DNA of 64,000 nucleotides from Congeria kusceri (lineage: Eukaryota; Mollusca; Bivalvia; Myida; Dreissenidae), in contig JAPFQT010000150.1 of the NCBI GenBank assembly GCA_027627225.1, forward strand, positions 439,001 through 503,000, written 5' to 3'. Under the pieces are notes generated by a model that was given only the letters and a program-made list of their open reading frames with translations, was not told the DNA's origin and searched no databases. Below, one piece after another: positions 26,131 through 56,975 of the stretch (position 1 is the first letter of the stretch; each line of letters begins with the position of its first letter). The position numbers and the translations under genes were made by a program.

Positions 26131-26380
26131 ATGCCATTGCCTCATGTTACATTACCATTTCATTAGATTACCTTCGCATTTTGTCATTTTGTGACTTTAA
26201 CCCTGCATGATGTTTTATTACCTTGCAATGTTTTACGTTTTGTTACATTACCATTTCTTTGCATGGTACATTACGATCGCATTGCCTGATATTAATTATG
26301 CATAAGTTAAAATACTATTTGATTTAGTAAAATTACCATAGCATTATGTTTACTGGTAGTTCCATTGTATTTTGTAACAT
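26131..26380. repeat. Degenerate edge of the 23-bp array
   Basis: Irregular 'acattaccattgc' and 'gttttattaccttgc' copies at variable spacing lead into the homogeneous array, as in the 35-bp array at 11.1-12.2 kb. Confidence 0.65.
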
Positions 26381-28578
26381 TACCATTGCTTTATGGCACA
26401 TTACCATTGTGATTTTTTGCACATTACCATTGTGCTTTATGGCAAATTACCATAGTTCGTTATGGCACATTACCATTGTGCATTATGGCACATTACCATT
26501 ATGCTTTAAGGCACATTACCATTGCTTTATGGCACATTACCATTGCTCTATGGCAAATTACCATTGTGCTTTATGGCACATTACCATTGTGCTTTATGGC
26601 ACACTACTATTGTGCTTTATGGCAAATTACCATTGTGCTTTATGGCAAATTACCATTGTGTATTATGGCACATTACCATTGTGCTTTACGGCCTATTACC
26701 ATTGTGCTTTATGGCACATTACCATTGTGCTTTATGGCACATTACCATTGCGCTTTATGGCACATTACCATTGTGCTTTATGGCACATTACCATTGTGCT
26801 TTATGGCACATTACCATTGTGCTTTATGGCACATTACCATTGTGAATTATGACACATTACCATTGTGCTTTATGGCAAATTACCATCGTGCTTTATGGCA
26901 AATTACCATTGATTTATGGCACATTACCATTGCTCTATGGCAAATTACCATTGTGCTTTATGGCACATTACCATTGTGCTTTATGGCACATTACTATTGT
27001 GCATTATGGCACATTACCATTGTGCTTTACGGCCTATTACCATTGTGCTTTATGGCACATCACCATTGTGTTTTATGGCACATTAATATTGTGCTTTATA
27101 GCACATTACCATTGCTTTATGGCACATTACCATTGCTTTATGGCACATTACCATTGTGCTGTATGGCACATTACCATTGTGCTTTATAGCACATTACCAT
27201 TGCTTTATGGCACATTTCCATTGTGCTTTATGGCACATTGCCATTGTGCTTTATGGCACATTAATATTGTGCTTTATGGCACATTACCATTGTGCTTTAT
27301 GGCACATTAATATTGTGCTTTATGGCACATTACCATTGTGCTTTAAGGCACACTACCATTGCTTTATCGCACATTAACATTGTGCTTTATGGCACATTAC
27401 CATTGTGCTTTATGGCACATTACCATTGTGCTTTAAGGCACATTACCATTGTGCTTTATGGCACATTACCATTGTGCATTATGGCACATTACCATTGTGC
27501 TTTATGGCACATTACCATTGTACATTATGGCACATTACCATTGTGCTTTATGGCACATTACCATTGTGCTTTTTTGCACATTACCATTGTGCTTTATGGC
27601 ACATTAATATTGTGCTTTATGGCACATTACCATTGCTTTATGGCACATTACCATTGCTTTATGGCACATTACCATTGTTCGTTATGGCACATTACCATTG
27701 TGCTTTATGGCACATTACCATTGCTTTATGGCACATTACCATTGCGCTTTATGGCACATTACCATTGTTCGTTATGGCACATTACCGTTGTGCTTTATGG
27801 CACATTACCATTGTGCTTTAAGGCACATTACCATTGTGCTTTATGGCAAATTACCATTGTGCTTTATGGCAAATTACCATTGCTTTATGGCACATTACCA
27901 TTGCTCTATGGCAAATTACCATTGTGCTTTATGGCACATTACCATTGTGATTTATGGCACATTACTATTGTGCATTATGGCACATTACGATTGTGCTTTA
28001 CGGCCTATTACCATTGTGCTTTATGGCACATCACCATTGTGCTTTATGGCACATTAATATTGTGCTTTATGGCACATTACCATTGCTTTATGGCACATTA
28101 CCATTGCTTTATGGCACATTAACATTGTGCTTTTTGGCACATTACCATTGTGCTTTATGGCACATTACCATTGCTTTATGGCACATTACCATTGTGCTTT
28201 ATGGCAAATTACCATTGTGCTTTATGGCACATTAATATTGTGCTTTATGGCACATTACCATTGTGCTTTATGGCACATTACCATTGCTTTATGGCACATT
28301 ACCATTGTGCTTTATGGCACATTACCATTGTGCTATATGACACATTACCATTGTGCTTTATGGCACATTACCATTGTGCTTTGTGGCACATTAATATTGT
28401 GCTTTATGGCACATTACCATTGTGCTTTATGGCACATTTCCATTGCTTTATGGCACATTACCATTGTGCTTTATGGCACATTACCATTGTGCTTTATGGC
28501 ACATTACCATTGCTTTATGGCACATTACCATTATATTTTGTAACATTACCATTGCTTTATGGCACATTACCATTGTAT
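26381..28578. repeat. 23/21-bp minisatellite, about 95 copies
   Basis: The unit is 'tttatggcacattaccattgtgc' (23 bp), with a shorter form lacking TG (21 bp) interspersed. Variants (ggcaaatt, ggcctatt, attaatatt, gcattatgg) recur in the same order in separate blocks, so it has higher-order structure. The long frames here (up to 276 codons) are repeat translations. Confidence 0.95.
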
Positions 28579-36490: not shown

Positions 36491-36669
36491 AACGACGATG
36501 ATATAGTCATTGCTGCTGATGGCAATTATGTTGGTGATGATTGATTTTGTTTGACAATGAGGATGATAATAATACTTATGATCATGCTGATGTATTAATA
36601 ATGAGTATGCTGCTTTTGATGCTGCTTATGATAAATGATGATGATGACGATGCTGACGTCACTTCCTAC

Positions 36670-36782
36670 CGTAGAAGGGTTCCCCCTTCTCATCCTTGCA
36701 GTGCGCGGTCAGGTTGGAGCCGTCACTGGTATCACACACCGCGTCCAGGACGCCGCTCACCGGGAGAGGTTCCGTGTCCGTG
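36670..36782 (-). CDS. WxxW mucin-like gene, upstream Cys-rich exon
   Basis: Acceptor with a good pyrimidine tract (CGTTTGCTCCTCTCCCCAG; AG at 36783-36784) and donor TACG/GTAGGAAGT (GT at 36668-36669). It holds one base, 37 codons and one base. The encoded TDTEPLPVSGVLDAVCDTSD followed by NLTAHCKDEKGEPFY supplies the first two cysteines of the WxxW domain and the '-D-x-E-P-L-' region that normally follows W-x-x-W. The tryptophan-bearing exon and signal-peptide exon should lie further upstream (coordinates above 36800). I could not find them, so the gene is 5'-incomplete here. NLT is a possible N-glycosylation site. Confidence 0.72.
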
Positions 36783-36889
36783 CTGGGGAGAGGAGCAAAC
36801 GTTGGACCATTTGTTCTAAACCTATTTATTGAAACTTGTGAGAGAGGAGTGGGGACAAGATACAGGAATCTGCTGGAACTCCCTGTATC

Positions 36890-37076
36890 TACTACTACTG
36901 CTACTAACACTTCTGTTTTTGCTTGTGGTGCTGGTGCTACTGCTGTTACTACTATTACTGCTACTAATGCAAAAACAACATCAAAAACAACAACAACTAC
37001 TACTAATACTATCACTACTACTACTACTACTGCTACTACTTTTACTATTACTACTACTATTACTACCACTACCACA

Positions 37077-37117
<41 letters not shown>

Positions 37118-37542
37118 CACTACTACTACTGCTACTACTACCACTACCACTACTACAACTACTACTACTACTACTACCACTATTACTATTGCTACTACTA
37201 CTACCACTACCACAACTACTACTACTACTGCTACTACTACTACCACTACCACAACTACTGCTGCTACTACTACTAACAACACTACCACTATTGTTACTAC
37301 TACCACTACTACTATTACTACTACTACTAGTACTAATACTACTACTACTACTACTACTGCTGATGCTGCTGCTGCTGCAACTACTACCACTACTACTATT
37401 ACTACTGCTGCTACCACTTCCACTACTACCACTACCACTACACTTATTACCACCACCATTACTACTAATACTACCACTACTACTTCTACTTGGACCACCA
37501 CCACTACTACCACTACCACCACTTCTACCACCACTACTGCTA
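36890..37542. repeat. (CTA/ACT)n trinucleotide array, left part
   Basis: About 650 bp of CTA/CTG/CCA-type triplets. The long open frames on both strands (poly-T, poly-L, poly-V, poly-S) are artefacts. The array continues in register at 38662 after an inserted element. Confidence 0.95.
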
Positions 37543-38661
37543 CAGTGTATTCCCTTTATACCGAACACTGACCGGACCGGACCAAATGTTCGGTTTTCGG
37601 AGAGTTCAGGTTTACTGACGGTTTGAGGCAAAATACAATTATGCATATAGATTATATTAATTTATTCGTTTCTTTCAGATTTATTTAAATATGGCGTTTT
37701 ATGACAGTACTTATTTAAAACGTAGCGCATTATTATAACATACAACACATTTTGAAATGAAACCATATCGTTAAGTTTGTCAAACTTACATGCATCCGAA
37801 ACGACATTTCTCCCGCGCAGCATTTTTCTCCCACTGTTCACTCTAAGTAGATTTTCGCAGAATAATGTCACTAACTGTAGACCTGCATACTGCATACTTT
37901 TCACTCAGAACCTTACGCTAGGGTTTCGGGATAGGTTCAGCATTACTGATCAATTTGATTGTGTTTTCGAGAGTTAATTCAACGTTTAGAAGGTGGCTCA
38001 GCCATTGTAACACTGTAATAACTTTGCAGAAAAATGACAGTTCATAAGTAACGTGGAGCATAAATACTCTATCATTTCTTTCAAGAAAGGCGGTTCTGCT
38101 CAACATTGCTTTGATTGCTTTGATAGGCTGTTAATTCGACCAACACCATTCAAATTATGTTTCAATTAAAGTAATCATTTACAATTATTACATCATTAAT
38201 AGTTATTACCTGAGTCATATAAATTGTTTGTAAAATGTTTAAAAAATTTTGCTAAACAAATGAAAACTGTCTAATTAACATACTGTTTGTTGTTCACAAT
38301 TTAAAGGCAATACCCATTTATTTCGCGACTAAACATCCTTATCTGGAGTCCTAATATGATGTCGAACTGTTGCTACTAATTATCGGATTAAGCGCGCAAT
38401 TACCCTGCAGCAAGACAATTGCGCGCTTAAGATAATCCATAACATCTGATTGTCACACATGTTCGGTTTACAGAGGTCAATTTGTAATCCGAAGCAAAGT
38501 GATGTACCGCTCCTGCTGTTTGATATTCGGAATACAGAGGTTCCGGTGTACCGAGGGTTTTCGAACATTAAACATATAGGCAAAACAACGGGACCGGAGC
38601 GTCTGTTCGGTTTTCAGAGAGTTCCGGTTTATAGATAATTCGGTTTTAAGAGAGTACACTG
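37543..38661. mobile_element. pogo/Tigger-like non-autonomous element (TA target)
   Basis: The left end CAGTGTATTCCCTTTATACC matches the inverted right end CAGTGTACTCTCTTAAAACC (19 of 23 over the first 23 bases). TA dinucleotides flank both ends (37541-37542, 38662-38663). Removing the element and one TA restores an unbroken CTA register. CAGT...-type ends and TA targets fit the pogo/Tigger branch of the Tc1/mariner superfamily. The 1.1-kb interior has no transposase frame. It has direct copies of 'tgttcggttttc-gagagttc' near both ends and a hairpin at 38386-38434. Confidence 0.72.
38386..38436. repeat. Hairpin within the pogo-like element
   Basis: Left arm 'ttaagcgcgcaatt' and right arm 'aattgcgcgcttaa' around a 15-base loop. 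The outer bases (ggat / atcc) extend the pairing imperfectly. Confidence 0.75.
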
Positions 38662-40841: not shown

Positions 40842-40847
40842 AGTCCC
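40842..40847. other. Target-site duplication, left copy (AGTCCC)
   Basis: AGTCCC immediately precedes the left terminal inverted repeat and is repeated exactly after the right one at 56970-56975. Confidence 0.88.
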
Positions 40848-40876
40848 TATGGAACGCCATCACTGCCTTAACATGA
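40848..40876 (+). repeat. Left terminal inverted repeat
   Basis: 29 bp starting TATGGAACGCCATCACTGCC; one mismatch (C/A at position 14) to the right end. Confidence 0.88.
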
Positions 40877-40899
40877 CAATTATTTTTATGAGCTGTGGA

Positions 40900-41620
40900 T
40901 ATATCGTAAAAAGATGTACACATATATTATATGGTGTTCAATTTTCGTTATATGGTGCCCTTTTTCCATTATATTTTGCTCATGCGTCATTCTATTATGC
41001 TTGTTGTTGTCAATATTATGTCTAATTGCTATGTTCTGATGCTAGTTAATCGTTATAGGCTGCTCATTTTCTATTATATGATGCTTGTTTGACTTTATAC
41101 GAGGTGCTGCCTATTTGTAGATCATTATATGATGCTCATTTTTCACTATATGATGTCAGTTTGCATCTATACGAGGTGCTGTATGATAATCGTTATATGA
41201 TGCTCATTTCTCATTATATGATGCTAGTTTAACATTATACGCTGCTTATTTTTAATAACATGATGCTGATTTTCCATTATATGATGTCATTTTGCATCTT
41301 TATGAGGTGTTGTATTTTTATCGTTATATGATGCTCATTTTTCATTATATGATGCTAGTTTAAAATTATAAGATGCTTATATTTAATTACATGATGCTAA
41401 TTTTCCATTATATGATGTCATTTTGCATCTTTATGAGGTGTTGTATTTTTATCGTTATATGATGCTAATTTTCCATTATATGATGCTAGTTTGACATTAT
41501 ACGCAGTCATTTTTAATTACATGATGCTCATTTTCCATTATATGATGTCATTTTGCCTCTATGCGAGGTTCTGCTTGTCCATGGTGCTCATTTTGTATCA
41601 TATGATGTCAGTTTTCCTTT
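40900..41620 (+). repeat. Left subterminal minisatellite of the transposon
   Basis: Units built from 'attatatgatgctagtttga', 'cattatacgctgcttatttt' and 'aataacatgatgctcatttt', with an 18-20-bp sub-period. The same family appears reverse-complemented at 56145-56940. It probably holds transposase-binding sites and promoter sequence for the integrase gene that begins at its inner edge. Confidence 0.88.
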
Positions 41621-41630
41621 ATAAACGGTT

Positions 41631-43079
41631 TTGTCATTTAATAATATGCAATTTTCATTAACATGCGATATATTATGCATGATGATATTGTATTGCTCCT
41701 GCATCGTTTGCACATGCCTTTGCAAAGAAAAAAAAAAGAATGGAATTCTCGAAAAATTGGGTTTAAATAGTGCTATTGAGACGTTCAAACATCAGAATAT
41801 TACGTCAGACATCGTAAGCAAAATATCAGCATATGAAATGGAAATGCTTGGTATTTCAAATAGATCTGTCATGATGCAGTTGAGAATTGAATGCAACAAA
41901 TATGGTGGCATTAAACCAAACAAAGACAGATCTAAAAGCGGCGCACCACAATTTGACATTCCTAAGAGCGTTCTGCAATATTTTCTAGAAAATGGTTTTA
42001 AAATAAGTGAGATTGCGAAGCTGGTGGCTGTATCTGAACGCACGATTTATCGAAGAATGGTAAGATATGGTCTTAGTCGACATGCATTTTCATTACTTAC
42101 TGATGACAACCTCGACGGGCATGTCAAAAAAGTAATAAACGAGTTCCCATTTTGTGGAGAGAACATGATAATGCAAATACTTCACCAAACAGACATTAAT
42201 GTCCAGCGGTATCGTTTAAGGGACAGCATTCATAGAGTCGACTCAAAAGGGGTTTCAGAGAGAAAACTTGGTCGTCTTCACAGGCGTGTGTACGAGGTAA
42301 TGGGTCCAAATCATCTGTGGCACATAGATACTAACCACAAGCTCGTTCGATGGAGATTTGTGATTATAGGGGGAATAGATGGCTTCAGCAGGATGGTCAC
42401 GTTTCTCTCGTGTGCAGACAACAATCGCGCAGGCACAGTGTTAAAAAGTTTCAAATCAGGTGTACACACGAATGGGATTCCAAAAAGGGTAAGATCTGAC
42501 AAAGGATTAGAAAACGTGGCTGTTGCAGACTTCATGTTGGCGAAACGAGGGACTGGCAGTATGATTACTGGACGCAGTACACATAACCAAAGAATTGAGA
42601 GACTGTGGCGGGATGTTTTTGAAGGAGTTTTGTGTTTCTTCTATAATTTGTTTTATTTTATGGAGGACAACGGGATACTGGACTGCTTAAACATGGTGCA
42701 TTTAATTGCTCTTCACTACATATACATGGATGAAATAAATAGAAGACTTAGTCTTTGGGCTCAAGCATGGTCGACACATAGAATTAGAACAGTGAATTCG
42801 TCTCCGCAAGCGCTTTGGTTATCGGGTCAGCTGCAGTCACCCATTGGCTTTGACTTACCTTCAGCAGATGTAAACGACGATAGTGCCGAAGAGTCCGGCG
42901 ATGAACAAACTGTTGGGAATGGAGAGAGACCAATATTTACACCTCTGGAAAAGATTATCAGTGACCATTGCATGGAGATGGTACAAAGACAGATCGCTTC
43001 CCCAAGACTTGATGTCAATCATGAGATTGATGATTACCTTACATGTGTTGATATCATTAACAGACATAATCAAAATTAA
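41631..43079 (+). CDS. DDE integrase-type transposase with SAM-like and HTH domains
   Basis: The 482-codon frame is intact. Residues about 38-92 look SAM-like ([33 protein letters not shown]). Residues about 108-150 form a helix-turn-helix ([20 protein letters not shown]). The integrase core follows: HLWHID with D233, [19 protein letters not shown] with D290, and [11 protein letters not shown] with E323. This gives a D-D-E triad with 32 residues between the last two. Related proteins are common in fish and invertebrate genomes. It should cut and join the ends of the 16-kb element. The first ~30 residues come from the subterminal array and are Cys-rich and hydrophobic. The real start may be spliced in (acceptor-like TTTGCAAAG near 41720). 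AATAAA lies at 43268-43273. Confidence 0.85.
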
Positions 43080-43141
43080 TGTATCTCGATTTGAAATGAA
43101 ACACCAATTAAAGAGTATCACCTTTACTTTATTTTTTATAA

Positions 43142-43260
43142 TTAGGGCTGCAACGATTCATTCGATGCCTCGGTCAATCGACTTAGACTCACCGATTCGA
43201 TTGTCGATATTTATTCAGTCATTTTCGATTCGATTATTTTACATGTTTACAGAAAAAATC
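43142..43260. mobile_element. Solo hAT-like end or remnant
   Basis: TAGGGCTGCAACGATTCATTCGA has the look of a hAT terminal repeat, followed by inverted 'cgattcgattgtcgata' / 'tcgattcgatta' pieces. No matching second end was seen nearby, so it is a truncated insertion inside the large transposon. Confidence 0.45.
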
Positions 43261-43274
43261 ATAAATCAATAAAT

Positions 43275-44130
43275 AAAAAGTATACTTTTGCATCTTTGTC
43301 ATGTAAACGGATGCCCCATCATGTTTGCTGTTATACTGTATTAAATTTTCTATTGAATCTGTATAATCATTTTCCTTTGTTTCTTATTTAGTTAATCATG
43401 TATAAGGTACAGACGTTTACATTAACTGATACAATGACATCAATAATAATTAATATATATAATGTATATGTTCCTCTATTTCAAATATTGACTCGCTAAA
43501 ATTTAGCTTATATAAATGAATAGTTGAGCTAAAACTGAATAAAACTGGGGTCACCGCTTTGGGACGGTCCATGCAAAGCATTGGCGGTTTAAACCGGTTT
43601 TATTGAGCTCCGAACCTCACACTTGGCCCAGATTTATTCATGTCAAATTAATGACTCTAGGTCAAATGCTTTAAGTTCTACACAAGAGACAAACTTCTCA
43701 AAGACGACAGAAAAAAAGCTAATCTACTTTAAGCCCCCACTGGAAAATGATATATATATATATATATAATATCATTTAGAAGCTTCTTATAGATTTGTCC
43801 ACATACAGCTTAATTTAATTTAGTGATCTTTATATTTGTCAAGCATTTTAACAAGTCACGTTAGATATAAATTGTAATCTATAGATACAATGTAATCACA
43901 TTTAGCACACCACACCGTAACAAAAGCTCACCACGTGCACTTCGTCACGTGACTACTATTATGAAAACTGACAATACAAATAAGGGAAGTAAAGAGCATT
44001 TATTTAAAAATATGCATAAGGTATAGCAGAACATTTTGAATAGTTGAACTGAGAAGAAAAAACAATATTGAACAAACAGACAAACAATTGATGAAAGTCT
44101 ACACTATATGAAAATTACATATACACAAAA
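43275..44130. other. AT-rich spacer in the transposon
   Basis: No gene seen. Includes a short (AT)n at 43751-43770. Confidence 0.45.
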
Positions 44131-44144
44131 TGCCCTTATAAAGG

Positions 44145-44640
44145 ACGGCAGAAATGACTAGAAATGTGAACACACCTATTATGCCACCATTCTGACGAAA
44201 AGTAAAATAATGCCACCATTCTGACAAAAATTAAAATAATCTATGTTTAATAAAAGATTAAACGAAGTTGAAAAACGCAAAGGGCAATAACTCGACAAAA
44301 AATAACTAGATACAAAAAGTGTGTGAATATGCCGTACATCACATGATATAAATCATTTTGTGAAAGTTTTGTGAAAATAACATAAGAAATGTAGGAGGAG
44401 TGCAGCCGATAAACTTTATAAGGTAAATTTAAACAAATGGCAATAACTCTTGCAAAAATGACCAAATACAAAAAGCATGATAATATGCGCTATATCACTT
44501 GATAATAATCATTTTGTGAAAGTTTGGTGCAAATTGCATAAGAAATGAAGGAGGTGACAGACAAGCTTTACAAGGTAAATTTAAACCAAGGGCAATAACT
44601 CTGATAAAAATGAAAATCCCATAAGAAATGTAGGAGTTAA
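44145..44640. repeat. ~165-bp tandem repeat, about 2.5 copies
   Basis: Copies contain 'gggcaataactc', 'atacaaaaag', 'atcattttgtgaaagttt' and 'cataagaaatgtaggagg'. The first lies at about 44278-44430, the second at about 44440-44585, and a partial one follows. Just before, 'tgccaccattctgac' is itself duplicated (44180, 44211). Confidence 0.75.
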
Positions 44641-45049
44641 CTGGAAAAGTAAGTTGGACTGACGTACGTTCTAACAGGAGAGTAATTAAGTGGCTACCTT
44701 ACGTAATACAGATACTTATGTATCTTAAAATAGCCACATAAAAAAAAGTTTTACCCACACAAAAGCAAAACTAACCCTAACTCTAATGATAATCAACTAA
44801 ACTGTCCAAAATAATAGCCACTTAAATACTCTCCTGTAAGTGCATAAAGAGACAGACAGTGTGCCACCATTCATGGGCATAAAAACTAAAAATATAAAAC
44901 TGGTATCTGTGAATAGTTAAACACATTCTGTAATTGTAAGATTAATAAAACATTTGACCGTATTTGCTAAAAACAATTACATGCCTTTTTATAAAACGCA
45001 ATAAAGAAGAATGCATCTTTTGACTCTAAAAAAAAAAAAAACTTTCAAG

Positions 45050-45310
45050 ATAAAAAGAGCTGTCATAAATGTTACATATTCCCCCCAACGGCTGGCCCAA
45101 AAATTGACCTTTGACATCTAAGTGTGACATTGACCTTAATGATACAGACTTCGGTTTTGTTCACGTCACGGTGACAAAAACTTGTGCCATGTCATTCAAA
45201 AATCCATCAATGAGTGCCTAAGTTATAGAGCTGACATGGTCTCCGATAGACAGACTGACTGACAAATCACAGTTTGACTACTGTAAGGCCACGTTTGGGC
45301 CATAATAAAA
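45050..45310. repeat. Interspersed repeat fragment ('gacctttgacatctaagtgtg')
   Basis: Contains 'ttgacctttgacatctaagt', 'gacattgacctt' and 'aatccatcaatgagtgc', then 'gacagactgactgacaaatc'. Gene-free sequence of this style, with tgacctt and gacagac segments, recurs in several introns here and is common in molluscs as I remember it. Confidence 0.55.
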
Positions 45311-45559
45311 GATAACGATATAACAATTAAACAATTGTAACCTCCTCAAACAGTTACAGAATTTTTTTAATTATAGCAATAGGTAAAACTGACTCAAATT
45401 GAGAAATGGCTTGAATTTTATAACATAGCAATATTATAAATCATTTAATTTTTCTATATACAGGAATAACAAGAGCTGTCAGAAGACGGCACGTTTGACT
45501 ATTTGAAATATATCAATTGGTACATATTTTTGACAGTGTACGGGATATATAACAGTTAA

Positions 45560-46640
45560 AAACAGATCTGAATTAAGGCAAATCGTTCATCAAATTATTC
45601 CAAGTTTTAAGTTTTTAAGTTCAAGACTTTAGAACAAAAACTTAATCAAAGTTTATGCATAAGTGGACATACCTATGTAAATTTTTAGTGGAAAGAAGAA
45701 TATAATTCTTTTCAAAATATAAAACAGAGTTATTTGGATTGTTGCTCCTGAAACTGGAGTTAATAACAACAGTATATTCTAAGTTTCGAGTAAATAACAT
45801 CTATTGTTTTGAAGTAACAACATTTTTGAAAATAAATTTGAACCAGAAAATCTTAGTGAAAAGGTGTATAGCTGTCACAATACAAAACAGATTTATGGGG
45901 AAAATTGCCCTTTATACATGTACTGAAGACAAACGTGTATATCAATGTTCAGGAAAATAACAAAACTTTTGAATTTAAACTTTTACCAGAAAATCTATTT
46001 AAAAGGGGGCATAACTCTTGTCACAATACAAAACAGAGTTGCGGACAATGTTGCCCCTGATACTGAAGTTCATAAAAAAGGTGGATGTCAAATTTCAAAA
46101 AAAATAACTTCTATAGTATTGAAGTAACAAACTTCAAAACTACATAACTCTGCCAAAATACAAAACATTGTTTAATGTGGGGAATGTTGCCACTGATACT
46201 GGATTTAATGACAAAAGTCAAAAGTGAATGCAAAGTTTTAAGTAAAAAACTTCTTAGTTTTGAAGTAACAAAACTTCTGAGTATAAACTTTAACCAGAAA
46301 ACTAAGTAAAACAGGAGGCATAACTCTGCCAAGATATAAAACCAGAGTTATGACAAATGTTTCCCCTGATACTGGAGTGGACGACAAACGTGAATGCCAA
46401 GTTTCAAGCAATAAATTCTAATGTTTTGAAATGACAATACTTTTGAATATAAACTTTAACTAGCAAATCTAAGTGAAATGAGGCATAACTCTGCCAAAAT
46501 ACAAAACAGAGTTATGGAAAGTGTTGCTGCTGATACTGAAGTTGATGATAAATCATGTAAATCAAGTTTCAAGTGAATAACTTGTGTAAGTTGCAAGACT
46601 TTTGAAGGCAAACTTTTAACAAAAGTTCAGACAGACACAT
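45560..46640. repeat. ~150-bp tandem repeat, about 6 copies
   Basis: Each copy includes 'cataactctgccaaaataca', 'aaacagagttatg', 'ttgcccctgatactg' and a 'caagtttcaag-aataa' segment. Spacing is about 150-160 bp, with gradual divergence. The small open frames within (45739-46332) are repeat translations. Confidence 0.82.
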
Positions 46641-46855
46641 TTATATTAAGTATTTTATATTCCCTCTCAATTTTCATCAACAAATTCAAATGTAAAGTAA
46701 TAAAACTAATTTTTTAGCAACATAAAAGTTTCTATAATCCAGTTTCCTAAACATTGGATTAACATATAACTATAAACAAGCTGTAAGTGAGTAAGTCTTT
46801 AAACATTTGAAATAGCACTTATTGTGCAGACATGCATTCGTTGGCTGGAGTACAG

Positions 46856-47115
46856 TTACACCATACCAAAAAATGTGTTTGAGAAAGCCAAGTCATAACA
46901 ATAAAACAAAGTCTGGTCTGGTGGTAAAGGCCTGTCCGTAGTTGGTCTTGGGAGATTCAAAGTGTTGGCACATGTGTTAGCTGTAGGAAGAAAGCTATTT
47001 GCCACCTCTGGAAACCTGATTTTTGGGTGCATTCTGAAGCCAAGCAAGGGTTCTTCTTCTGCGCCAGTGGCAAATTTGAGGATCTTGTTTAAGGTGACCG
47101 TCTCTCTCCTACCAC
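46856..47115 (-). CDS. SAM-HECT ligase gene, exon 6: HECT C-lobe
   Basis: Acceptor TTTTTACTCAG (AG at 47116-47117). Two bases, then 85 codons and a TAA at 46856-46858. It encodes the HECT C-lobe: TVTLNKILKFATG, EEEPLLGF, and NSFLPTANTCANTLNLPRP with the catalytic cysteine (C637 in my joined numbering). The end FSNTFFGMV* is a slightly extended C-terminus. The Cys that forms the ubiquitin thioester is present, so the enzyme could be active. The phase joins exactly to exon 5 (G + GT = Gly). Confidence 0.85.
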
Positions 47116-47189
47116 CTGAGTAAAAAAAGATGGTCGATAAAGCATAGTCTGCATCATACAAATAATAAAGTGAGATGTGTCTGCAGAAA

Positions 47190-47640
47190 AATTAAACAAG
47201 ACAGCCCTAGGTGGCTCACCTGATTACAGAGCAAACTAAAGCACCACTGGCAGCTATCTTTTTTACTTCTAGAGTTTCATTTTTTTAATATAAATTACGT
47301 ATTGACCTTGTTTTTGACCCGATATGACCCACTTTCAACATACCCACATATCGTCCCATATATCAATTTCAGGGGTGTAGAAATCCTATGCCCAACTCGT
47401 CCAACATGGGTAATTTGAATGTGAAGACTTTAATGTAAAATTTTCCTGTAAACTTCTCTGCGGACAAGAACAATTTTGATGCTATCCACATACCAAGTTT
47501 CATCAACGTAGCTTAAGTATTTTTTGAGTTATCGCATGATCCAGATTCGGACGAACAGACGGACTGACACACAGACGGACGGACCGGGGGTAACCTATAG
47601 TCCGCTCCAGTTACACCGGTAGGGGACTAAAAATCTCAAT
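47190..47640. repeat. Interspersed repeat in intron 5
   Basis: Begins 'aagacagccctaggtggctc' and 'aaagcaccactggcagc', and ends 'gacggacggaccgggggtaa' and 'ccggtaggggactaa'. A related copy starts near 51720 ('aaactaaagccccacttgcagc'). No frame. Its edges look like those of a SINE-like or LINE-3'-derived repeat, class unknown. Confidence 0.55.
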
Positions 47641-48425
47641 CATGTCCTTTATAAACGTTGCTAGTATACATCAAGTGCTGCATTTAGGTGTTCATACAGT
47701 TTTAAGTTTATTTCCAAATACTTTAGGTAGAGATGTCCATGAGTAAACATGTATTTGAAATAGTACACAATGTACATATTAGACGTATATCAAGGTCACT
47801 GGTACAGTTTTGATCACTTAAGAGTTTTAAGACATAAAGTATGTACGATTATATTCTGTACAATAATAAACATTACCAAATTTCACAGTGAATTATTTAT
47901 GCAGCTAACATTAATTAATGGTCGAATAGGGCGTATTTAGAATTGAACAAAAAGCAAATCTGATTGTGATATGTCAAGATTTCCCTGTTTTTAAAAACAT
48001 TATTATTTCTTACAAGAAAAAGAATTATATTTAATTTTAATACTTAATGCATTAATAGGAATTTGCAAATTACAAATTTTTTTCCATAGCTTGAGAGCCA
48101 TTTTTTTACTTTACAATTGACCTTGGCTGGCGGACAAGAAAAATTTTACAATGTACTTGTCCTTGGAGAAGTGAATAATTTTTATATATCCAGACCTCTG
48201 TCAATAAATAAGGTAATGTTTCTGCAAGTCTACCAGGTAATGCAGATTGGGTCACAAGGGTAAACAAGCCTTTTTCTGATTTGTCCTAATTTTTGACCTG
48301 AGGCAACACATTAAAGGAGCATGATTCCTCAGAAGGAATAAATGAAAGTAAAGAATTATATTTTAAAGAAGGTATAGCAGTTTTTGTTCATTTTCTTTGT
48401 TTTGAAAATGTAATGTTTTATTTAC

Positions 48426-48600
48426 CAGCTGCTTCCCGCATGTATCTTGTAAATGCTGCATAAACTTTGCTTTCACCGCCTCTACTATTAGACCCCATTT
48501 CGGAAAAGAACGGGCGCAGCAAGTGCGTCAGGAGTCTCACCGTCATGGTAGTACTTGTTGGTCTTAGTAAATACCTAAATGACGGGAGAGTGAGTCCAAC
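48426..48600 (-). CDS. SAM-HECT ligase gene, exon 5
   Basis: Acceptor TTTTCTGATACAG (AG at 48601-48602) and donor CTG/GTAAATAA (GT at 48424-48425). 58 codons plus one base. It encodes VGLTLPSFRYLLRPTSTTMT, then LLRPFFSEMGSNSRGGESKV and AAFTRYMREAA. This is the part of the HECT domain that precedes the C-lobe in G2E3-like proteins. Confidence 0.85.
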
Positions 48601-48914
48601 CTGTATCAGAAAATTAAAACATAACATTATACCTAAAACCATTGGTTATTTGGCAGTAATTACAACTGTCATGTTATAGGGTGTGGACAGTAAATATAGC
48701 AAGCAATGACTCCAGAAACTCTATCAGGAGAGAAATTCTTGTTATCATCCACAAATCGCATTACAAAACACCAACCATAAACATAGGTGATCAAATCATT
48801 GTGAAGCATTGTTTTGTGTTTTGGCCTGTTCTTTGAGCAAGAAGACAGTGTCAACCTATGGTAAGGAGCAAAAACTGAATATGATTTTTGTGTGATTCAC
48901 TGTTTAATACTTAC

Positions 48915-49051
48915 TGTATATAGACCTAGCCAGTCTAAGCCAATCCGTAGATTCATAATGCACTCTGATCTTGTCTCTGCCAAGCTAAAGATCTGCTCTT
49001 CATAGTCATGAATGAAAAATGGAATCTTTCCATTCTGTAAGATGCTCATGC
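48915..49051 (-). CDS. SAM-HECT ligase gene, exon 4
   Basis: Acceptor TATCCTCAG (AG at 49052-49053) and donor ACA/GTAAGTATT (GT at 48913-48914). Two bases plus 45 codons, ending in phase 0. It encodes SMSILQNGKIPFFIHDYEEQ and ECIMNLRIGLDWLGLYT. The LSILQNGKIP block is a hallmark of the G2E3-like HECT N-lobe. Confidence 0.84.
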
Positions 49052-49299
49052 CTGAGGATAACAAAGTTTATAGCTAACCTTTTACTCAGATTTGAAATTA
49101 ATATTAATTTTGTAGATAACTTTACATTTCTGTATCACAAAAAGTAAAACATTCTGCAGGTATATTAAACTGAATATCAGATATGCTTATGAAAAGACAA
49201 ATAAATATTTTACACAATTTCAGATTATTTTAAACTATGAGGAACAACAATATTGTATCCATTTGAACAAGGCAGTCCAAGAGACAGCTATATCCCCAG

Positions 49300-49640
49300 C
49301 CGAGATTTTTTTAACCTTGAAGTGGTGACCTTGATTTTGAGCCAGCGTGACTGACTCGTGCCTTGTGCACATCGTCCCAATGACCTAAACATTGTGGCCA
49401 TGTTTGATGAAAATCCTTCAATGGGAAAAGGAGATATGGACCATGCACGATAAAAGGCTCAAACTTTTGACCTTAAAGTATGACCTTGGCCTTGAGCCGG
49501 CGTCACTGACTCGTGCCTTCTGCACATCGTCTCAATGACCTAAAAATTTTGCAAAGTGTCATGAAAATCCTTCAAAGGGTATAGGAGATATGGAGCGGAC
49601 ACGAAAATGGTGGCTCAAACCATTGACCATTTACCCCGTC
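49300..49640. repeat. 163-bp tandem duplication in intron 3
   Basis: Two copies of a segment with 'gtgaccttgattttgagcc', 'gactgactcgtgcctt', 'tgcacatcgtc-caatgacct' and 'gaaaatccttcaa'. They start at about 49315 and 49477. It is the same style of repeat as at 45050. Confidence 0.75.
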
Positions 49641-49854
49641 CACGAACTTTACGGATGACCCTCGTACATTGTTGTATAAATTAATATTTAAAAAGTATCT
49701 TTTTGACAACATTGGTATTAGTTAACATAATGAACACCTACTGAATTTCGGCTTTTAGGTTCATCAGAAAAAATCGCTTGATTCAATAATGAGGAAATTT
49801 TTGTATACCATTAATATTTTTTCCCCAAAGTGATTGACACCTAAAGCCACTTAC

Positions 49855-49987
49855 TGAAGAGCCTTCCAATTGTTATATAGTCCTCTAGCATATGTTCACG
49901 GAGTCCATTATCAAAGTACTTTTCCTTTATTGCTCCGAGTACAAGCTGGAAAAATTCTTTTCTCGGACCGCCAAGGTCATGGGCCAT
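49855..49987 (-). CDS. SAM-HECT ligase gene, exon 3: start of HECT N-lobe
   Basis: Acceptor CCTCTTTCAG (AG at 49988-49989) and donor CTTCA/GTAAGTGG (GT at 49853-49854). 44 codons plus one base. It encodes MAHDLGGPRKEFFQLVLGAI and EKYFDNGLREHMLEDY. GGPRKEFF is the conserved HECT N-lobe motif. The Met is internal and not the gene's start. Confidence 0.85.
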
Positions 49988-50484
49988 CTGAAAGAGGGTA
50001 ATACTTATAAGTTTGTATTAAATAAATTGAATCTTTTTTTTTCCTACCATGGGCATATTTTCGTCAATTTTTTGGGCCGAATTTTGCCCCCCCCCCACCC
50101 CCTATGAAAGAAGAAAAAAGAAATTTGAATTCTGCATAACATTACAAAATTGTGTCTACAAGTATTTTATGCTGTTAAACATTACCTGGGGTTATTTTCA
50201 ATTTTTAATAAGAATATCTAATTAAAGTGATTAGATATTCATTATTTTAAATAAATTAAAAAAATATTCCTAAATTCCCCCCGGTAAGGTATTTTGCGTA
50301 AACGTTCCCCTGGAAGGGCCCAGGCCTGATATCCGCAGGAGTGAGAATATGCCCTGCTGCAACATTTTACATCCAATTTCTTTACCAAATTAACAATGGC
50401 TGATAAGATGTTGATTTTTTACGAAATCAAACATTTAAGCCAAATCTGTAATTGAGTAGCTATAATAAATCATCTTCAAATTAC

Positions 50485-51544
50485 CTCATCGTAAAACTGT
50501 ACCTCCAATACCAGTCTTGGGTTTTGAATAGCCTTGATTTCATCAAAGGAAGTTTCAAGGATGTTTAGCCTATCAACATTTATGAAATTGGTTTCCCCTG
50601 CATCCATGGTGTTTTCATTAGAGTCAATGTCAAGCTGTCTTCCAGTCACTATAACTGATTGCAGATATCTTAGCATTTCAACAGGATCTTCTATTTTATG
50701 ACTAACCATGTGTTCTATGGCCTTCTCAACCACAGTATGTACATTATCTGAATGTGGATCAAAAGCTGAATTGTTGCTGTCATTTGACTGTTCTACAGCA
50801 GTATCAACATAAGCAGATTGCGCATCAGATTCCATATTCAAAAGAAGTTGACTGTTGTGGTCATTAGCTTCGATCACTTGATTGACATGTTCACTTGAGA
50901 CAAAGACAAAACTGTCAGTTTCAAGGGTTATTGCAGTTGCTGCTTGGTCGGTTTCCAAATTTGTCTCGATCTGGATCTGCGACTCTTGACATTCCTCTTG
51001 GTAGTGAGATCTCAGATTTTGAACTTCAATCTTTTGACCACATTGTCTACATTTTTCTTTTAGGTCAGCATCAGACGTCTCTATTACAACCGGTTCGGTA
51101 GATAAATTTTGTTGGATTGGTCGAACATAAATTTTTGCCTGAGTACCGAGGAATTTTTTCAACTCTTTAATGGTCCATGGGCAGTCAATAACTTTCAAAC
51201 TCCGGCTATTTGCTTGACATCGAAGCAATTCAAATCCTCCGCAATTTTTCAGCTGGGGAAATCCTATGTATTCGTTGCTATCATTCTTTTCTTCCAAACA
51301 TATCTTTTCCATGATGTTGTCTTGACAACTGAACTGTATTTTGTTAGTACCCAGTCCTGCCTTCATCAGCCTTTCTTTAATATCAGCTGTTGGGACTTTA
51401 TTACTGTTTTTGGTACTTAAACACACTATTGTCACAGTCCATGGTCGATGAGGCTCTTTTGAGATTGGTCTTTGTCTTGAATTTCTCCCAGTACGAGAGA
51501 ATAGCAAATGTCGCTCCCGTCCAGCTCCAAAGTCTCCCACACGA
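50485..51544 (-). CDS. SAM-HECT ligase gene, exon 2: linker and C2HC motif
   Basis: Acceptor TTTATTTCCAG (AG at 51545-51546), donor GATGAG/GTAATT (GT at 50483-50484). One base plus 353 codons. It begins SRVGDFGAGRERHLLF, continues with FSRTGRNSRQRP, GGFELLRCQ and AKIYVRPIQQNLSTEP, then a zinc-binding-like C-x2-C-x11-H-x4-C (C252, C255, H267, C272 in joined numbering). After an acidic, low-complexity stretch the HECT start follows: FINVDRLNILETSFDEI and LVLEVQFYDE. The layout matches proteins annotated as 'G2/M phase-specific E3 ubiquitin-protein ligase-like' in fish and invertebrates. The frame is clean over 1.06 kb. Confidence 0.87.
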
Positions 51545-51719
51545 CTGGAAATAAATAAACAGTTGCAAACTATGAAACAAGTTACATTATTTAAAGTATC
51601 ATAGAAAAGTTGCAAACTACTGCCATAACTGAATACACAGGTGGTAATAACATGCTCATGGTTATATAAAAATACTTTTATATATACGTTTGGTCGTCTA
51701 TGTCAAAGATGCTTTAAAA

Positions 51720-52140
51720 GACAGCAATGAGTTGCTCATCTGAGTATAAATCAAACTAAAGCCCCACTTGCAGCCTTATTATTTACCTCGAGCATTAACA
51801 AGATTTTTCTTTTATTTGACCTGTTGACCGAGTTTATGTCCCAAAAAGACCCACTTTGAACTCAGTCATCTTAGCATGTCCTGAACAATTTTCATAACGA
51901 TTCGGGCAAATAATACAGCCTCTAGAGTGTTCACAGAGCTTTTTCATTTTATTTGATACAGTGATCTAGTTTTTGACCCACGATGACCCAGTTTCCACAC
52001 CGTATAAGATATCCAACAGATAATTGTTATGAGCAAGTTACATGATGATGATTGCACAAAAAAGTTGCTTCAAGAGTGAAAACAAGCTTTTTCTTAAAGT
52101 TGACCTGGTGATCAATTAAACACCTTACCAGTATATAAGG
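51720..52140. repeat. Interspersed repeat in intron 1
   Basis: Shares 'aaactaaagc-ccact-gcagc' and the gacccactttgaac-like segment with the repeat at 47190-47640, in the same orientation, then adds a duplicated 'tttttatttgac' portion. Confidence 0.55.
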
Positions 52141-52584
52141 TAATGCAGGAACTACATCTTCACTGCATTCCTTATTTAAAATGAATAGTGTGTTTTTATC
52201 TTTAGCTTTATTTTAATTGATTAATTGTTAATTCTAAGTTTAAAATGTACAACATTACTGTTTTAATGCACTTAGTTGAATTACTTTGAATGTATATCAT
52301 TTTAATAATTATGTTGATTAAACTAAGTTATGAAATGAAAATTTTTTTATTTCAAATAAATGTAAAACAATATTCATTTCAAAAATGAGTGGCTCTAAAT
52401 AAGACTAAATGTTGTTCAAGTATTATTTGTTGTTGTGTATTAATGAATTTGAATGTTTGATTTATGTATGTGTGATTTTATGACTACACTCCTTACTTGC
52501 AATAAATGGTGTTTATTCATTTTGGCTTGCAGTACGGCTTCCTCCTCCTAAAGAACCCCTCACAAGACAATGTAGTCGTTAAAG

Positions 52585-52737
52585 AGAAATTACTACAAAA
52601 TCTTCCATCACATTAAATTCAAGAAATTGCTACAAAATCTTCCATCACATTAAATTCAAGAAATTACTACAAAATCTTCCATCACATTAAATTCAAGAAA
52701 TTACTACAAAATCTTCAATCACATTAAATTCAAGCAA
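52585..52737. repeat. 37-bp tandem repeat, four copies
   Basis: Unit 'aagaaattactacaaaatct' plus 'tccatcacattaaattc'; copies nearly identical, so recent. Confidence 0.93.
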
Positions 52738-52839
52738 AATAGACATTGGGACAAAATTCAGAGACAACAATCACACTGTGCCCACAATAATAACAACTAC
52801 AACAACAACAATCTCTGTCAAAATATAAATATAATTTTT

Positions 52840-53665
52840 TAAGTAATGGTGGCCTTGACCCCCACCCGTCAGATGCAATTCCAAGTGAGGTCTAAATATA
52901 AGGTACCCATGTGTGAAGTTTTATCACAAAAGCTGAATCAGCTCTCGGGACATTGAATGGAAAACTTGCCATATCTAGAAATGGTGACCTTGACCTGGAC
53001 CCAACCCATCCTAAAGGCAATCCCAAGCTAGGTCTCCATATAAGGTATTTATAAATTAAGTTTCATTGCAATACTTCAATTAGTTTGCAAGATATTGCTT
53101 GGGAAACAGTTTTTCTATGTTTGGTAAGGGAGACATTGACGCCACCTATCCCAGATGCAATCCCTAAGAAATGTCTTGATATAAGGTACATGTGTGTGAA
53201 GTTTCATGGCAGTAACTTAACGTGTTCTCGAGTTATTGAGCGAAAACTGTTTTGCTATTTATAGTAATGTTGACCTTGATTCCATCTACACCAGTTGCAA
53301 TTCAAAGCAAGGTCTCATTTCAGGAATATATAATTATGAAGTTTCATCACAAATAAAGCTTAAGTTTTTTCCAAGTTATTGAGTGGCAACCGTTTTGCTA
53401 TTAAAAGTAATGTTCACCTTGACCCCACCTACCCTAGATGCAATCAAAAGCGAGGTCTCTCTTAAAGTATCCATTATGAAGTTTTATCACAATAAGTCAA
53501 ATCATTCTCAAATTATTGAGTGAAAACCATTTTGCTATTTTCAGTTATGGTGACCTTGACCCTGCCTACCCCAAATACAATCACAAGTGAGGTATTGATA
53601 TAAAAAATGAATCTAAGCATGAAGTTTCATTAAGATAACGAAATGGGTTCTCAAGTTATTATCAA
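52840..53665. repeat. ~140-bp tandem repeat, about 6 copies
   Basis: Each copy has 'gaccttgacccc-cctaccc', 'agatgcaat', 'gaggtct', 'tgaagtttcatcac' and 'ttattgagtg-aaac'. The copies have diverged. The unit belongs to the tgaccttgacc-rich family common in these introns. Confidence 0.82.
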
Positions 53666-54244
53666 CACCAAAATAAACAATTTTGAAAAATTTAAGCAAT
53701 TGTTTTTATACATTTTTGTCGTAATGACAAAAAATAGAAAAAATGAGGTTTCGTTTTGTTCTTGTTTTCTTCATTTTAGGCACAAAATTTCATACTTATT
53801 CAGTTGCAGCTGCAGAAGTTTGAATGATATTTAATGGAACACATTAAGCAATTTAGCACATTGTTTTAAACAGAAAACAAAGTAGCAGAATCACAATAAA
53901 ACTTTACTACAGACAGCTTAAGTTTCATCTTCAATAACAGTGACCCAGATGTATGTTTTTTAAAGGTTAAACATTATGTTCTAAATTTAAATAAAACATA
54001 ATTACACATAATAATAATACAACATGAGTACTTGCAAGTGTTAACATACCTAAACAGTAGATGTCCTTATTTCAATTAACCACATGCATACCAAGTAGAT
54101 GATAATTGTTGAAAATCAGCAGTGCCACATTAATGTTAATTAGCACAAGTTACTGTTAGCTTGTTTTAGCCATATTTATTTTATTCACTTGATATGAGTT
54201 GTAAGAGATTAGTAGTTTGATTCAAGAAGTAGAGACCAGGGCCC

Positions 54245-54478
54245 TGTTTTACTAAGCTACTTACGCAATTCTTAGACTTGCGCGCACAATTTAAATTCGT
54301 TATAGGATCTTCACTGTATTACTATTAGCTTACCGGTAAAAGAACTCATGTTTCTATTATAACATGACATTTTAAATTTCAAGAAATGATTAATTTACCT
54401 CAATCTGTTATTACAAAATTCCAAGAATTTAAAATATATACGTACAAATAAGAATTGCGTAAGTAGCTTAGTAAAACA
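54245..54478. mobile_element. MITE with ~30-bp inverted ends
   Basis: 'tgttttactaagctacttac' followed by gcaattctta at the left is mirrored by 'taagaattgc' and 'gtaagtagcttagtaaaaca' at the right. The 234-bp element has no frame. It lies in intron 1 of the ligase gene. Confidence 0.82.
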
Positions 54479-54969
54479 TTCTGCATTATTCTTTATAAAA
54501 CGTATTATTGTAATCTCCTGTAGAAATATTTTCAACTTGTTAATATTTGCTTCTCATATGAAACCTTATACAAAAGTACCTTTGCATAACTAGCTTGCAC
54601 ACACTTTCAGTGTTGCTAGCAGGCCTGTTATCAGCAGTTCTATTTAACACATTTGTCTCGCTCGAAACTCTCCTATTTGATTCCTATATTTCAGAAATAA
54701 ATATCTTGTCTTTCCTAAAAACCAATTTGTCTCCATAGGAAATTGATCTGCTATACAAATGGAGTGACCCTGTGTCTTTTTTTCTAATAAAGCCAGATTA
54801 AAAACATGTGGTTTAAATTACTGCATGGATGGTAATTTTACTTCTTATTAATAAATCTGCTGTAAAACAAATGGGGTGGAATAGATTTTAGCTAGTAGAA
54901 TTGTGTGATAAATAATATGTTTGGCTGTATTTGCTTTAATTGAAAATTGTGAACTCATCAATAATAAAC

Positions 54970-55145
54970 TGATTAGTAACGCCAAAAAAAAATTATTAAT
55001 AATAATTATTATTATTAATTAAAATAATAGCATTAGAAGTAAAATTAATAATAATTAATTTATGTTGCATCATCATCATCATCATCATCATCTTCTTCTT
55101 CTTTTATCAGCATCATTATCACTACAACCACCACCACCACCACTG
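54970..55145. repeat. AT-rich and CAT/CTT/CAC microsatellites
   Basis: (AAT/ATT)n at 54985-55055, (CAT)n at 55067-55091, (CTT)n to 55105, then (ACC)n near 55125-55145. The MLHHHHHHHHLLLL frame is an artefact. Confidence 0.9.
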
Positions 55146-55817
55146 CCGATTTTCAATGATTTTCATCAACAATTTAAGGAGAAAGGAGATTATGACACAG
55201 ACATACAGGCACAGACAATTTTCCACACAGTCATCTTATGCAATAAAATGACTTACCATCACCAATATTTTTTACATTAGTAAAATCTCATAAAAATGGG
55301 TTGATTTAGCTTTATTTATTGTATTATTGCTGTAGCACTACAAACCTCTAAAAAATGTCTTGCTAACAAAAGGTAAGACTGTGTTAAATAGAATGAATAG
55401 CTTTATGTCATTAGCGAAAGCATTATGTGTCCAAATGTTTGAACAACATAAAAGGCGTCAAAATAGGACAGCGTCAATTTAGGTCACTTGAGGATATGTT
55501 AATCCCTCAGTCCCCACCTGCAAATATTAATATTTTAAAGTAGGGTTTAAAAATAGTCAGTCAGTAAAAAATTAACCCATGGAATTTGTTCAAATTTTAC
55601 ATAGTTTGCTGAACCAGAAGGGTGCATCAATAAATACTATACACTTACTGACCATGATCATAGGAACATATTTCTTACGCGTGTCCGCAGTATGGCGAAT
55701 ATTGAACATTGCAAAATCGTTGTTTTACCCTAGTATTGGGCGGTTGGTGGACTGAGTGAAACATGGAATTACGTGAATCAAGGCATTAACACTGAGTTGT
55801 TAAGTTTTTTTCCTAAC

Positions 55818-56077
55818 CTGATGACAGTGGAGCCTTGGTCATTGCCAATGACACTGGTTTCGCTGGGACTTGGAGTGACGTCACGTTGTTGGATTTCCCG
55901 TACCTTCTCCCTCAGCCTTACCCTGTCACCGATTGTTGTCACGCCAAGTCGGCATAGTTCATTGTCTGACAGAGTCAGCAAATTTAAAAACTCTATTCGT
56001 TGGCTAACGAAGTTGTTTAACAGGCCATGTAGCCCTATTTCTTGCAAAACACTTTCGATTGTTTGGCGGCCCGCCAT
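55818..56077 (-). CDS. SAM-HECT ligase gene, exon 1: start and SAM domain
   Basis: ATG at 56075-56077, donor CATCAG/GTTAGG (GT at 55816-55817). 86 codons plus two bases; AG + T makes Ser at the junction to exon 2. It begins MAGRQTIESVLQEIGLHGLL and continues with a SAM fold to about residue 65 (FLNLLTLSDNELCRLGV, DRVRLREKVREIQQ). SAM domains mediate protein-protein or RNA contacts, and here could pair with the SAM-like domain of the integrase. Intron 1 is about 4.3 kb. The joined protein is 674 residues. The start lies about 70 bp inside the right subterminal array, which probably supplies the promoter. Confidence 0.86.
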
Positions 56078-56144
56078 AACGATTTTTCAAATGGCAAGAT
56101 AGCAACTAAGGGAGTTGACTGCGTGTATTCTAAAAATAGCCGGT

Positions 56145-56940
56145 TCGCCCATCGTATAATGAAAAATGCACATCATAATATGGTGTTTTGACACCATGGT
56201 AAAAAATAGCATTTTATCAACGCAAATTACCATCGTGTATTGACGATTAAGCATCATATACTGTCAAACTATCAACATATAGTGGACAATTAGCATCATG
56301 TAATGATAAACATGCAACATATAATGTAAAACTAGCATCATATAGTGGAAAATGAGCATCATGTTATGATAAATAAGCATCATTTAATGTCAACCTAGCA
56401 TCTTATTATGGAAAATGAACATCACTTTATGGTTATAAGCAGCGCATAATGTCAAACTAGCATCATATAATAGAAAATGAGCATCACGTAGTATTAAACA
56501 AGCAGCGTATAATGTTAAACTAGCATCATACAATGTAAAACTAAAATCATATAATTGAAAAAGACATATTGTGATGATAAATAAGCAGCGACTAATGTCA
56601 AACTAGCATCATATTATGGACATTGAACAGTATGTTATGATAAATAAGCAGTCCATAATGTCAAACTACCATCATATAATGGAAAATGAGCATCATATAA
56701 CGGACAATGAGCATCATATAATGGACAATAAGCATCATATAATGGATAATGAGCATCATATAATAGAAAATTATCATCATGTTATTATAAATAAGCAGCG
56801 TATAATGTCAAAGTAACATCATATTATGGAAAATGAGCATCATGTTTTAATAAATAGCAGCGTATAATGTCAAATTAACATCGTCTAATGGAAAATAAAC
56901 ACCATATAATGAAAAATAAAGCAGCGTATAAAAGTTTTTC
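56145..56940 (-). repeat. Right subterminal minisatellite of the transposon
   Basis: Reverse-complement of the family at 40900-41620: 'catcatataatggaaaatga', 'gcatcatgttatgataaata' and 'agcagcgtataatgtcaaac'. About 800 bp, slightly longer than the left array. Confidence 0.88.
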
Positions 56941-56969
56941 TCATGTTAAGGCAGTTATGGCGTTCCATA
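56941..56969 (-). repeat. Right terminal inverted repeat
   Basis: Reverse-complement begins TATGGAACGCCATAACTGCC; 28 of 29 matches to the left end. Confidence 0.88.
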
Positions 56970-56975
56970 AGTCCC
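56970..56975. other. Target-site duplication, right copy (AGTCCC)
   Basis: Identical to 40842-40847; begins directly after the right terminal repeat. Confidence 0.88.

Follow-up and report, generated by a model that had tools for sequence, protein, structure and literature searches.

Architecture of a two-gene transposon in Congeria kusceri

The DNA analyzed here is a 64,000-nucleotide stretch of the Congeria kusceri genome (contig JAPFQT010000150.1, positions 439,001 to 503,000), referred to below as the window, and it contains a DNA transposon of 16,122 bp (40848-56969) that is delimited by its termini and by flanking 6-bp duplications. Two convergent genes lie inside these boundaries, one for a transposase on the + strand and one for a predicted HECT ubiquitin ligase on the - strand. 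An earlier reading of this DNA (the original prediction) had described 29-bp inverted ends, perfect AGTCCC duplications, inverted subterminal arrays and an open six-exon SAM-C2HC-HECT gene, all of which were confirmed. Specifically, the left terminal inverted repeat (TATGGAACGCCATCACTGCCTTAACATGA, beginning with TATGG) occupies 40848-40876 on the + strand and its counterpart 56941-56969 on the - strand, with identity at 28 of 29 positions. With up to three mismatches allowed, the end pattern occurs twice in the window and not at all in 100 shuffles. The AGTCCC duplications, which carry no strand, lie at 40842-40847 and 56970-56975. Just inside the termini are two subterminal arrays with a period of ~21 bp that are inverted copies of one another, one at 40926-41560 (rows 40926-40974 and 41049-41560, + strand) and the other at 56250-56917 (- strand); these arrays are likely to be binding sites for the transposase.

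The transposase frame (41625-43079, + strand, 484 residues from stop to stop) comprises a SAM-like N-terminus, a helix-turn-helix (HTH) region and an integrase core that matches Pfam rva_4 with an E value of 4.5e-74. The catalytic residues are D235, D292 and E325, and this DDE triad is invariant in 47 aligned transposases. A structural model of the protein (mean confidence 80 overall) places five helices at residues 35-92, corresponding to the SAM-like N-terminus. The SAM-like and HTH regions stand in place of an HHCC motif, and Pfam reports neither an HHCC family nor a zinc domain in this protein. Among the matches listed, the nearest named relative is from Dreissena, at 71% identity.

The ligase gene consists of six exons joined by GT-AG introns and encodes 674 residues with SAM, C2HC-like and HECT regions. 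Exon 1 (55818-56077, - strand, as are all that follow) holds the start codon and the N-terminal SAM domain, and exon 2 (50485-51544), which also served as the genome probe, encodes a conserved region, the C2HC-like finger and a linker. The HECT N-lobe starts in exon 3 (49855-49987) with the motif GGPRKEFF and is followed by exons 4 (48915-49051) and 5 (48426-48600), and exon 6 (46854-47115) contributes the C-lobe, the catalytic Cys within TANTCANTLNLP and the stop codon. The window protein matches Pfam HECT at 1.3e-7. A match to HECT is also found in 31 of 32 aligned relatives, and the catalytic Cys is invariant in all 32. A model of one relative (P0121) matches solved HECT structures with an E value of 4.1e-10 and low TM-scores, and the matches in the structure library concern folds that were to be expected. 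On the basis of its N-lobe, C-lobe and catalytic Cys, the window protein appears to be a HECT E3 ligase, for which ubiquitin transfer is predicted.

Two repetitive tracts were noted elsewhere in the window: a long minisatellite-like array at 26331-28122, open in more than one frame and built of repeats such as HCALWHITIVLYGTLPLCFMAHY, and a long low-complexity, triplet-rich tract at 36659-37661 that is open on both strands.

Copies in the Congeria genome and pairing in diverged elements

Searching the Congeria genome (1.549 Gb in 1,071 contigs) with the first 301 bases of the element identified at least 33 places with near-identical left ends (98-100% identity, window copy included); this is a lower bound, as 40 of 72 candidates were scored. 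The expectation that other copies would share these ends was thus borne out. As DNA, HECT exon 2 matches 19 places at 96-100% identity, all of them found downstream of an end from the set of 33 and separated from it by a convergent transposase. Merging haplotypes (C150/C3 and C45/C50, where C150 is the contig of the window) reduces these 19 places to 17 distinct insertions, and 11 of the 17 possess their own perfect 6-bp duplication (the window, C8a, C15, C17, C8b, C13a, C13b, C14, C11d, C9 and C2). These 11 range from 16.1 to 23.8 kb in length, and the right end of C2 is degenerate. With respect to the other insertions, C11c has both ends and a duplication score of 0/6, the right end of C45/C50 was not found within the 20 kb fetched, those of C16, C173 and C4 were not found within the 0.5 kb inspected, and a partial copy at C9:32238012 was left out of the duplication scoring. 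Two deletion derivatives were also identified: C11b (6,613 bp), which retains the transposase and a piece of HECT exon 1 between perfect duplications, and C275 (2,214 bp), which retains pieces of both genes and a duplication matching at 5 of 6 positions. Both frames are open in at least one of nine copies examined, and stops, indels or changed splice sites occur in several others.

The copy at C3:93397496-93417495 represents the other haplotype of the window insertion, as indicated by an identical 120 nt of 5' flank and the same duplication. This allele is 16,267 bp long, a difference of 145 bp, and exon 6 of its HECT gene contains one inserted nucleotide. Both haplotypes carry the insert, and the allelic empty site proposed as a check in the original prediction was not found for the window insertion; uninterrupted targets were nonetheless recovered as paralogues for another copy. 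The copy in question, C8a, interrupts a dispersed repeat (C8:22994519-22994668 and 22978076-22978231), and a query joining its flanks through one copy of CATCAG is crossed without an insert at seven other places (in six cases over bases 1-221 with 91-95% identity, in the seventh over bases 1-217 with 88%). Two more places match this query weakly, one at 75% and one reaching 12 bases past the junction. The element is best read as a mobile, recently amplified DNA transposon, and its mobility is well supported.

A separate group of left-end matches was noted on C9, where five 91-base matches at 97% identity (30925, 206596, 220770, 396485 and 410659) involve the left end only. Their spacings of ~14.2 kb and ~175.7 kb are repeated, perhaps reflecting a segmental array that contains the short end of a relative.

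At the protein level, HECT exon 2 matches 129 stretches that resolve into 81 loci, comprising the 19 of the window family and 62 diverged loci at 33-46% identity. Pairing was scored by nearest hit, with a convergent transposase required within 25 kb downstream of the HECT gene or, from the transposase side, a HECT gene within 30 kb. As 94 of 828 candidates from the transposase protein search were scored, the resulting counts are lower bounds. A convergent transposase accompanies the HECT gene at all 19 own-family loci and at least 33 of the 62 diverged loci, in the latter case at distances of 9.8-21.3 kb, compared with ~0.05 expected under random placement. Viewed from the transposase side, a convergent HECT gene within 30 kb accompanies at least 37 of 67 diverged loci. 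The two counts differ in part because C459 and C741 contain tandem units, such that the nearest match may belong to a neighboring unit. Many of the diverged HECT loci, at 33-46% identity to the window family, keep an open frame. In one diverged family, three copies were compared for their ends, and homology extended past the 2.5 kb fetched.

The diverged pairs on C459 and C741 form tandem and inverted units. On C459 the unit spacing is ~20.8 kb, with HECT genes at 47268, 68071 and 88873 and transposases at 59461, 80263 and 101065.

Relatives of both proteins are present in other genomes. Protein searches returned 2,553 matches to the transposase and 989 for a second query (the best 120 listed in each case) and 103 to the HECT protein; among the matches listed, the named relatives are from bivalves and cnidarians and, for HECT, also from the hemichordate Ptychodera. 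In Exaiptasia, a transposase and a SAM-HECT relative (AIPGENE17508 and AIPGENE17520 as genes; P0238, P0163 as listed proteins) lie on contigs of equal size (219,823), pointing to a single contig. By the same test of equal size, four more contigs (30,226, 468,268, 1,048,430 and 1,466,850) appear to be shared by transposase and SAM-HECT relatives. The four HECT proteins on those contigs start with SAM; P0205, P0209 and P0210 run out just past the exon 2/3 boundary of the window gene, and P0222 stops earlier. Coincidences of size in Pinctada and Argopecten concern chromosome-sized sequences and carry no weight. Scans of viral contigs with both proteins yielded no relative, and a scan of bacterial and archaeal genomes yielded transposase pieces on three short contigs of a metagenome-assembled Cycloclasticus sponge symbiont; these are probably sponge DNA in the bin.

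The convergent pairing at 33 of 62 diverged loci indicates that HECT has long been the second gene of elements of this kind, although many of the loci are copies of one another. We consider it nearly certain that the two-gene plan, a SAM-HTH-DDE transposase with a convergent SAM-C2HC-HECT gene, is old and recurrent and that HECT is its conserved second gene. The proposal in the original prediction that the ligase is genuine cargo of the element is accordingly supported, both by this pairing and by the 19 exon-2 places beside element ends and the 11 insertions with their own duplications. Because pairing, gene order and the catalytic Cys are kept at 33-46% identity, the HECT protein likely works for the element and is not accidental luggage.

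The shared SAM domain and possible roles of the ligase

A profile comparison of the two protein families returned a single match, the N-terminal SAM domain (probability 95.4%, E value 1.9e-8). When the SAM pieces were compared alone, profile against profile, the match strengthened to a probability of 98.4% and an E value of 5.5e-15, with 3 of 18 HECT rows lacking a clear SAM. The HECT-SAM profile, at E<=1e-3, detects 116 of the 137 transposases listed, the best of them scoring 43.9 bits, and the transposase-SAM profile detects 38 of 103 HECT relatives (best 44.1 bits, as against 33.6 for tankyrase, the best solved SAM). Of the 47 aligned transposases, 12 have a SAM_2 match and 11 a SAM_1 match at E<=0.01, and a five-helix SAM is also present in the model of one HECT relative. 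The nearest solved SAM domains are those of BICC1, ANKS6, tankyrase and CNKSR2, with those of BICC1 (E value 1.5e-10), ANKS6 and tankyrase closest to the HECT SAM. The SAM domains of these four proteins polymerize or pair.

The explanation we favor, with a probability of roughly 0.45, is that the element is a two-gene transposon of the IS3EU/GingerRoot type whose ligase docks on its own transposase. The HTH region of the transposase would bind the inverted subterminal arrays, and association of the two SAM domains would recruit the ligase to the transposase of its element or to the transpososome. One possible substrate at that site is the transposase itself, whose ubiquitination would limit its dose or take apart the complex that is left after integration; host proteins of chromatin or repair in the vicinity would be alternative substrates. 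Among the components of this scheme, SAM-mediated docking, suggested by the profile matches, is possible at appreciably less than even odds. More tentative is the idea that the matched SAMs provide a built-in ubiquitin switch, governing transposase dose or post-integration release, in bivalve and cnidarian element families, and it is doubtful that the transposase or its complex would be the main substrate. As ligase and transposase share the SAM domain, docking is directly testable with the two proteins.

A number of observations weigh against this explanation. With respect to the SAM link, Pfam finds no SAM match in the window transposase, and SAM is detected in 53 of 103 HECT relatives, some of which are partial sequences. 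SAM domains are common, and the HECT-SAM profile scores the best solved SAM, that of human BICC1, at 43.8 bits, level with the best transposase SAM. In a tree, the SAM sequences of the two protein families fall into distinct clades, one group comprising 22 sequences and the other 47, and thus no recent SAM swap is seen. In one diverged family probed for the SAM/HTH part of its transposase, none was clear within 2.5 kb of the core. As for the pairing, the rule used identifies no convergent transposase for 29 of the 62 diverged HECT loci, and the independent cases number fewer than 33 since many diverged loci are copies of one another, as judged by equal identities. The signal of co-divergence is weak (r 0.90, 16 of 720 permutations), being based on six pairs and driven by one close pair.

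Further points on this side concern the state of the genes. The original prediction of an open DDE integrase gene holds for the frame, but whether the window copy is intact is uncertain, because the usual start Met of close relatives (MN..LDKLGL) reads AAG here and other in-frame ATGs lie upstream. Given the latter, the window transposase may still be expressed. In the copies compared, this codon is ATG in C8a, C15, C17, C11c, C45 and C50 (five distinct insertions, C45 and C50 being alleles), TTG in C11b, and AAG in C3, the allele of the window insertion. Between copies, the ratio of nonsynonymous to synonymous differences (pN/pS) spans 0.28 to 4.15 in 15 HECT pairs and 0.26 to 3.16 in 28 transposase pairs, a spread like that expected when inserted copies decay largely neutrally. 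Among the 25 transposase loci of the window family, six are not accompanied by a match to HECT exon 2.

The alternatives differ mainly in what the ligase would act upon. It may be directed at the host, its SAM mimicking or joining host SAM assemblies (BICC1-ANKS RNA regulators, tankyrase or chromatin SAM proteins) so as to remove repressors of the element. The closeness of the HECT SAM to those of BICC1, ANKS6 and tankyrase is consistent with such a role, as is the proposal, in the accessible text on fungal IS3EU relatives, that their TET/JBP gene counters silencing (PMC12730594). Nothing in the analysis points to a host substrate, and a purely host-directed ligase would leave the related SAM on the transposase of the same element unexplained; we regard this alternative as unlikely. 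Less probable still is service in a post-insertion step, in which the ligase would ubiquitinate factors involved in repair or chromatin at the place of integration. A comparable function has been proposed for the OTU/Ulp1 proteases of Ginger1, whose authors suggested an involvement of ubiquitin and, noting ubiquitin/SUMO proteases on several transposons, a role in post-transposition repair (PMC2836005, in the portion available). Transposon-encoded deubiquitinases are also active enzymes, according to the available part of a further report (PMC9741609). Those enzymes, however, remove ubiquitin or SUMO, whereas a HECT ligase would add ubiquitin, and no result of our analysis bears on repair.

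The pN/pS values, which for most pairs of HECT copies lie close to 1 or exceed it, and the family transposase loci lacking HECT would suit a host gene captured long ago and simply carried along. Such passive cargo would scarcely be expected to retain many open frames at 33-46% identity in an arrangement convergent with a transposase (33 of 62 loci), or a catalytic Cys invariant in 32 relatives, or to adjoin an element end in all 19 exon-2 matches at the DNA level, and we rank it slightly below a post-insertion role. A host HECT gene caught by chance between two unrelated ends, or an error of assembly or annotation, has no observation in its favor and is a negligible prospect given eleven distinct insertions that carry the gene within their own duplications and the existence of paralogous empty sites.

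Comparison with known transposons

The rva_4 family (PF24764) is, we presume, a marker of the IS3EU/GingerRoot group. According to the accessible text on IS3EU families, their ends are TA..TA and their duplications usually 6 bp (PMC10045372). The window element and the copies with both ends mapped terminate in TATGG...CCATA, 11 of 17 distinct insertions have perfect 6-bp duplications, and the first catalytic D, at residue 235, falls within the 100-300 range from the N-terminus in a protein with no HHCC motif. By its ends, duplications and DDE layout, the window element thus appears to fit IS3EU/GingerRoot. The closest parallel is provided by the TET-bearing fungal IS3EU elements, which, as far as the available text describes them (PMC12730594), have TAYGG..CCRTA ends, 6-bp duplications, an integrase-like DDE transposase without HHCC and a second gene in the opposite orientation. 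Their second gene is an alpha-kinase, lying opposite to the transposase, or TET/JBP, whereas here it is a SAM-C2HC-HECT ligase, and the accessible text does not mention an N-terminal SAM-like domain in the transposase.

Two other assignments were rejected. Identity with Ginger1 conflicts with the 6-bp duplications and with a transposase that has no zinc domain, and for Polinton/Maverick elements, only the transposase and HECT genes were recognized, ten chosen other open reading frames of the element matching no Pfam family above the cut-off. Polintons have 6-bp duplications as well, together with genes for DNA polymerase B, an ATPase, a protease and capsid proteins. RAG1 and RAG transposons represent a DDE transposase lineage with RING-type E3 ubiquitin ligase activity in the same protein; in the Congeria element, by contrast, the predicted HECT ligase is encoded by a separate gene and linked to the transposase perhaps by SAM-SAM contact.

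In terms of the ubiquitin pathway, Ginger1 resembles the window element in combining an integrase-like transposase with a ubiquitin/SUMO pathway enzyme, and differs in its 4-bp duplications, its HHCC motif and its OTU/Ulp1 proteases, which are fused to the transposase and remove modifiers (PMC2836005, portion available). The premise of the original prediction that integrase-type transposons usually carry just recombinase genes is contradicted by these OTU or Ulp1 domains and by the alpha-kinase and TET/JBP genes of fungal IS3EU elements (PMC12730594). Helitrons with VTD or OTU deubiquitinase domains likewise bear ubiquitin enzymes that possibly protect or regulate element proteins, but they are rolling-circle elements with deubiquitinases rather than ligases (PMC9741609, in its accessible part). 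Transposon-borne ubiquitin and SUMO proteases had already hinted at the importance of this pathway in transposition; here the activity would be the opposite one, that of a predicted ligase which is found repeatedly in diverged elements and has a protein-interaction domain in common with the transposase.

Literature searches, whose coverage stopped short of Repbase and most subscription journals, returned no report of HECT in IS3EU/GingerRoot-type elements, and a word search of the main text of a study of host domains found together with transposon domains did not find "HECT" (PMC12062965). A survey of the HECT family in a bivalve agrees with our analysis in describing multi-copy HECT genes and departs from it in treating them as host genes, the word "transposon" not occurring in its accessible text (PMC11353290). 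Our results suggest that, in the genomes of bivalves and cnidarians, some of the HECT genes now attributed to the host by annotation are in fact transposon genes.

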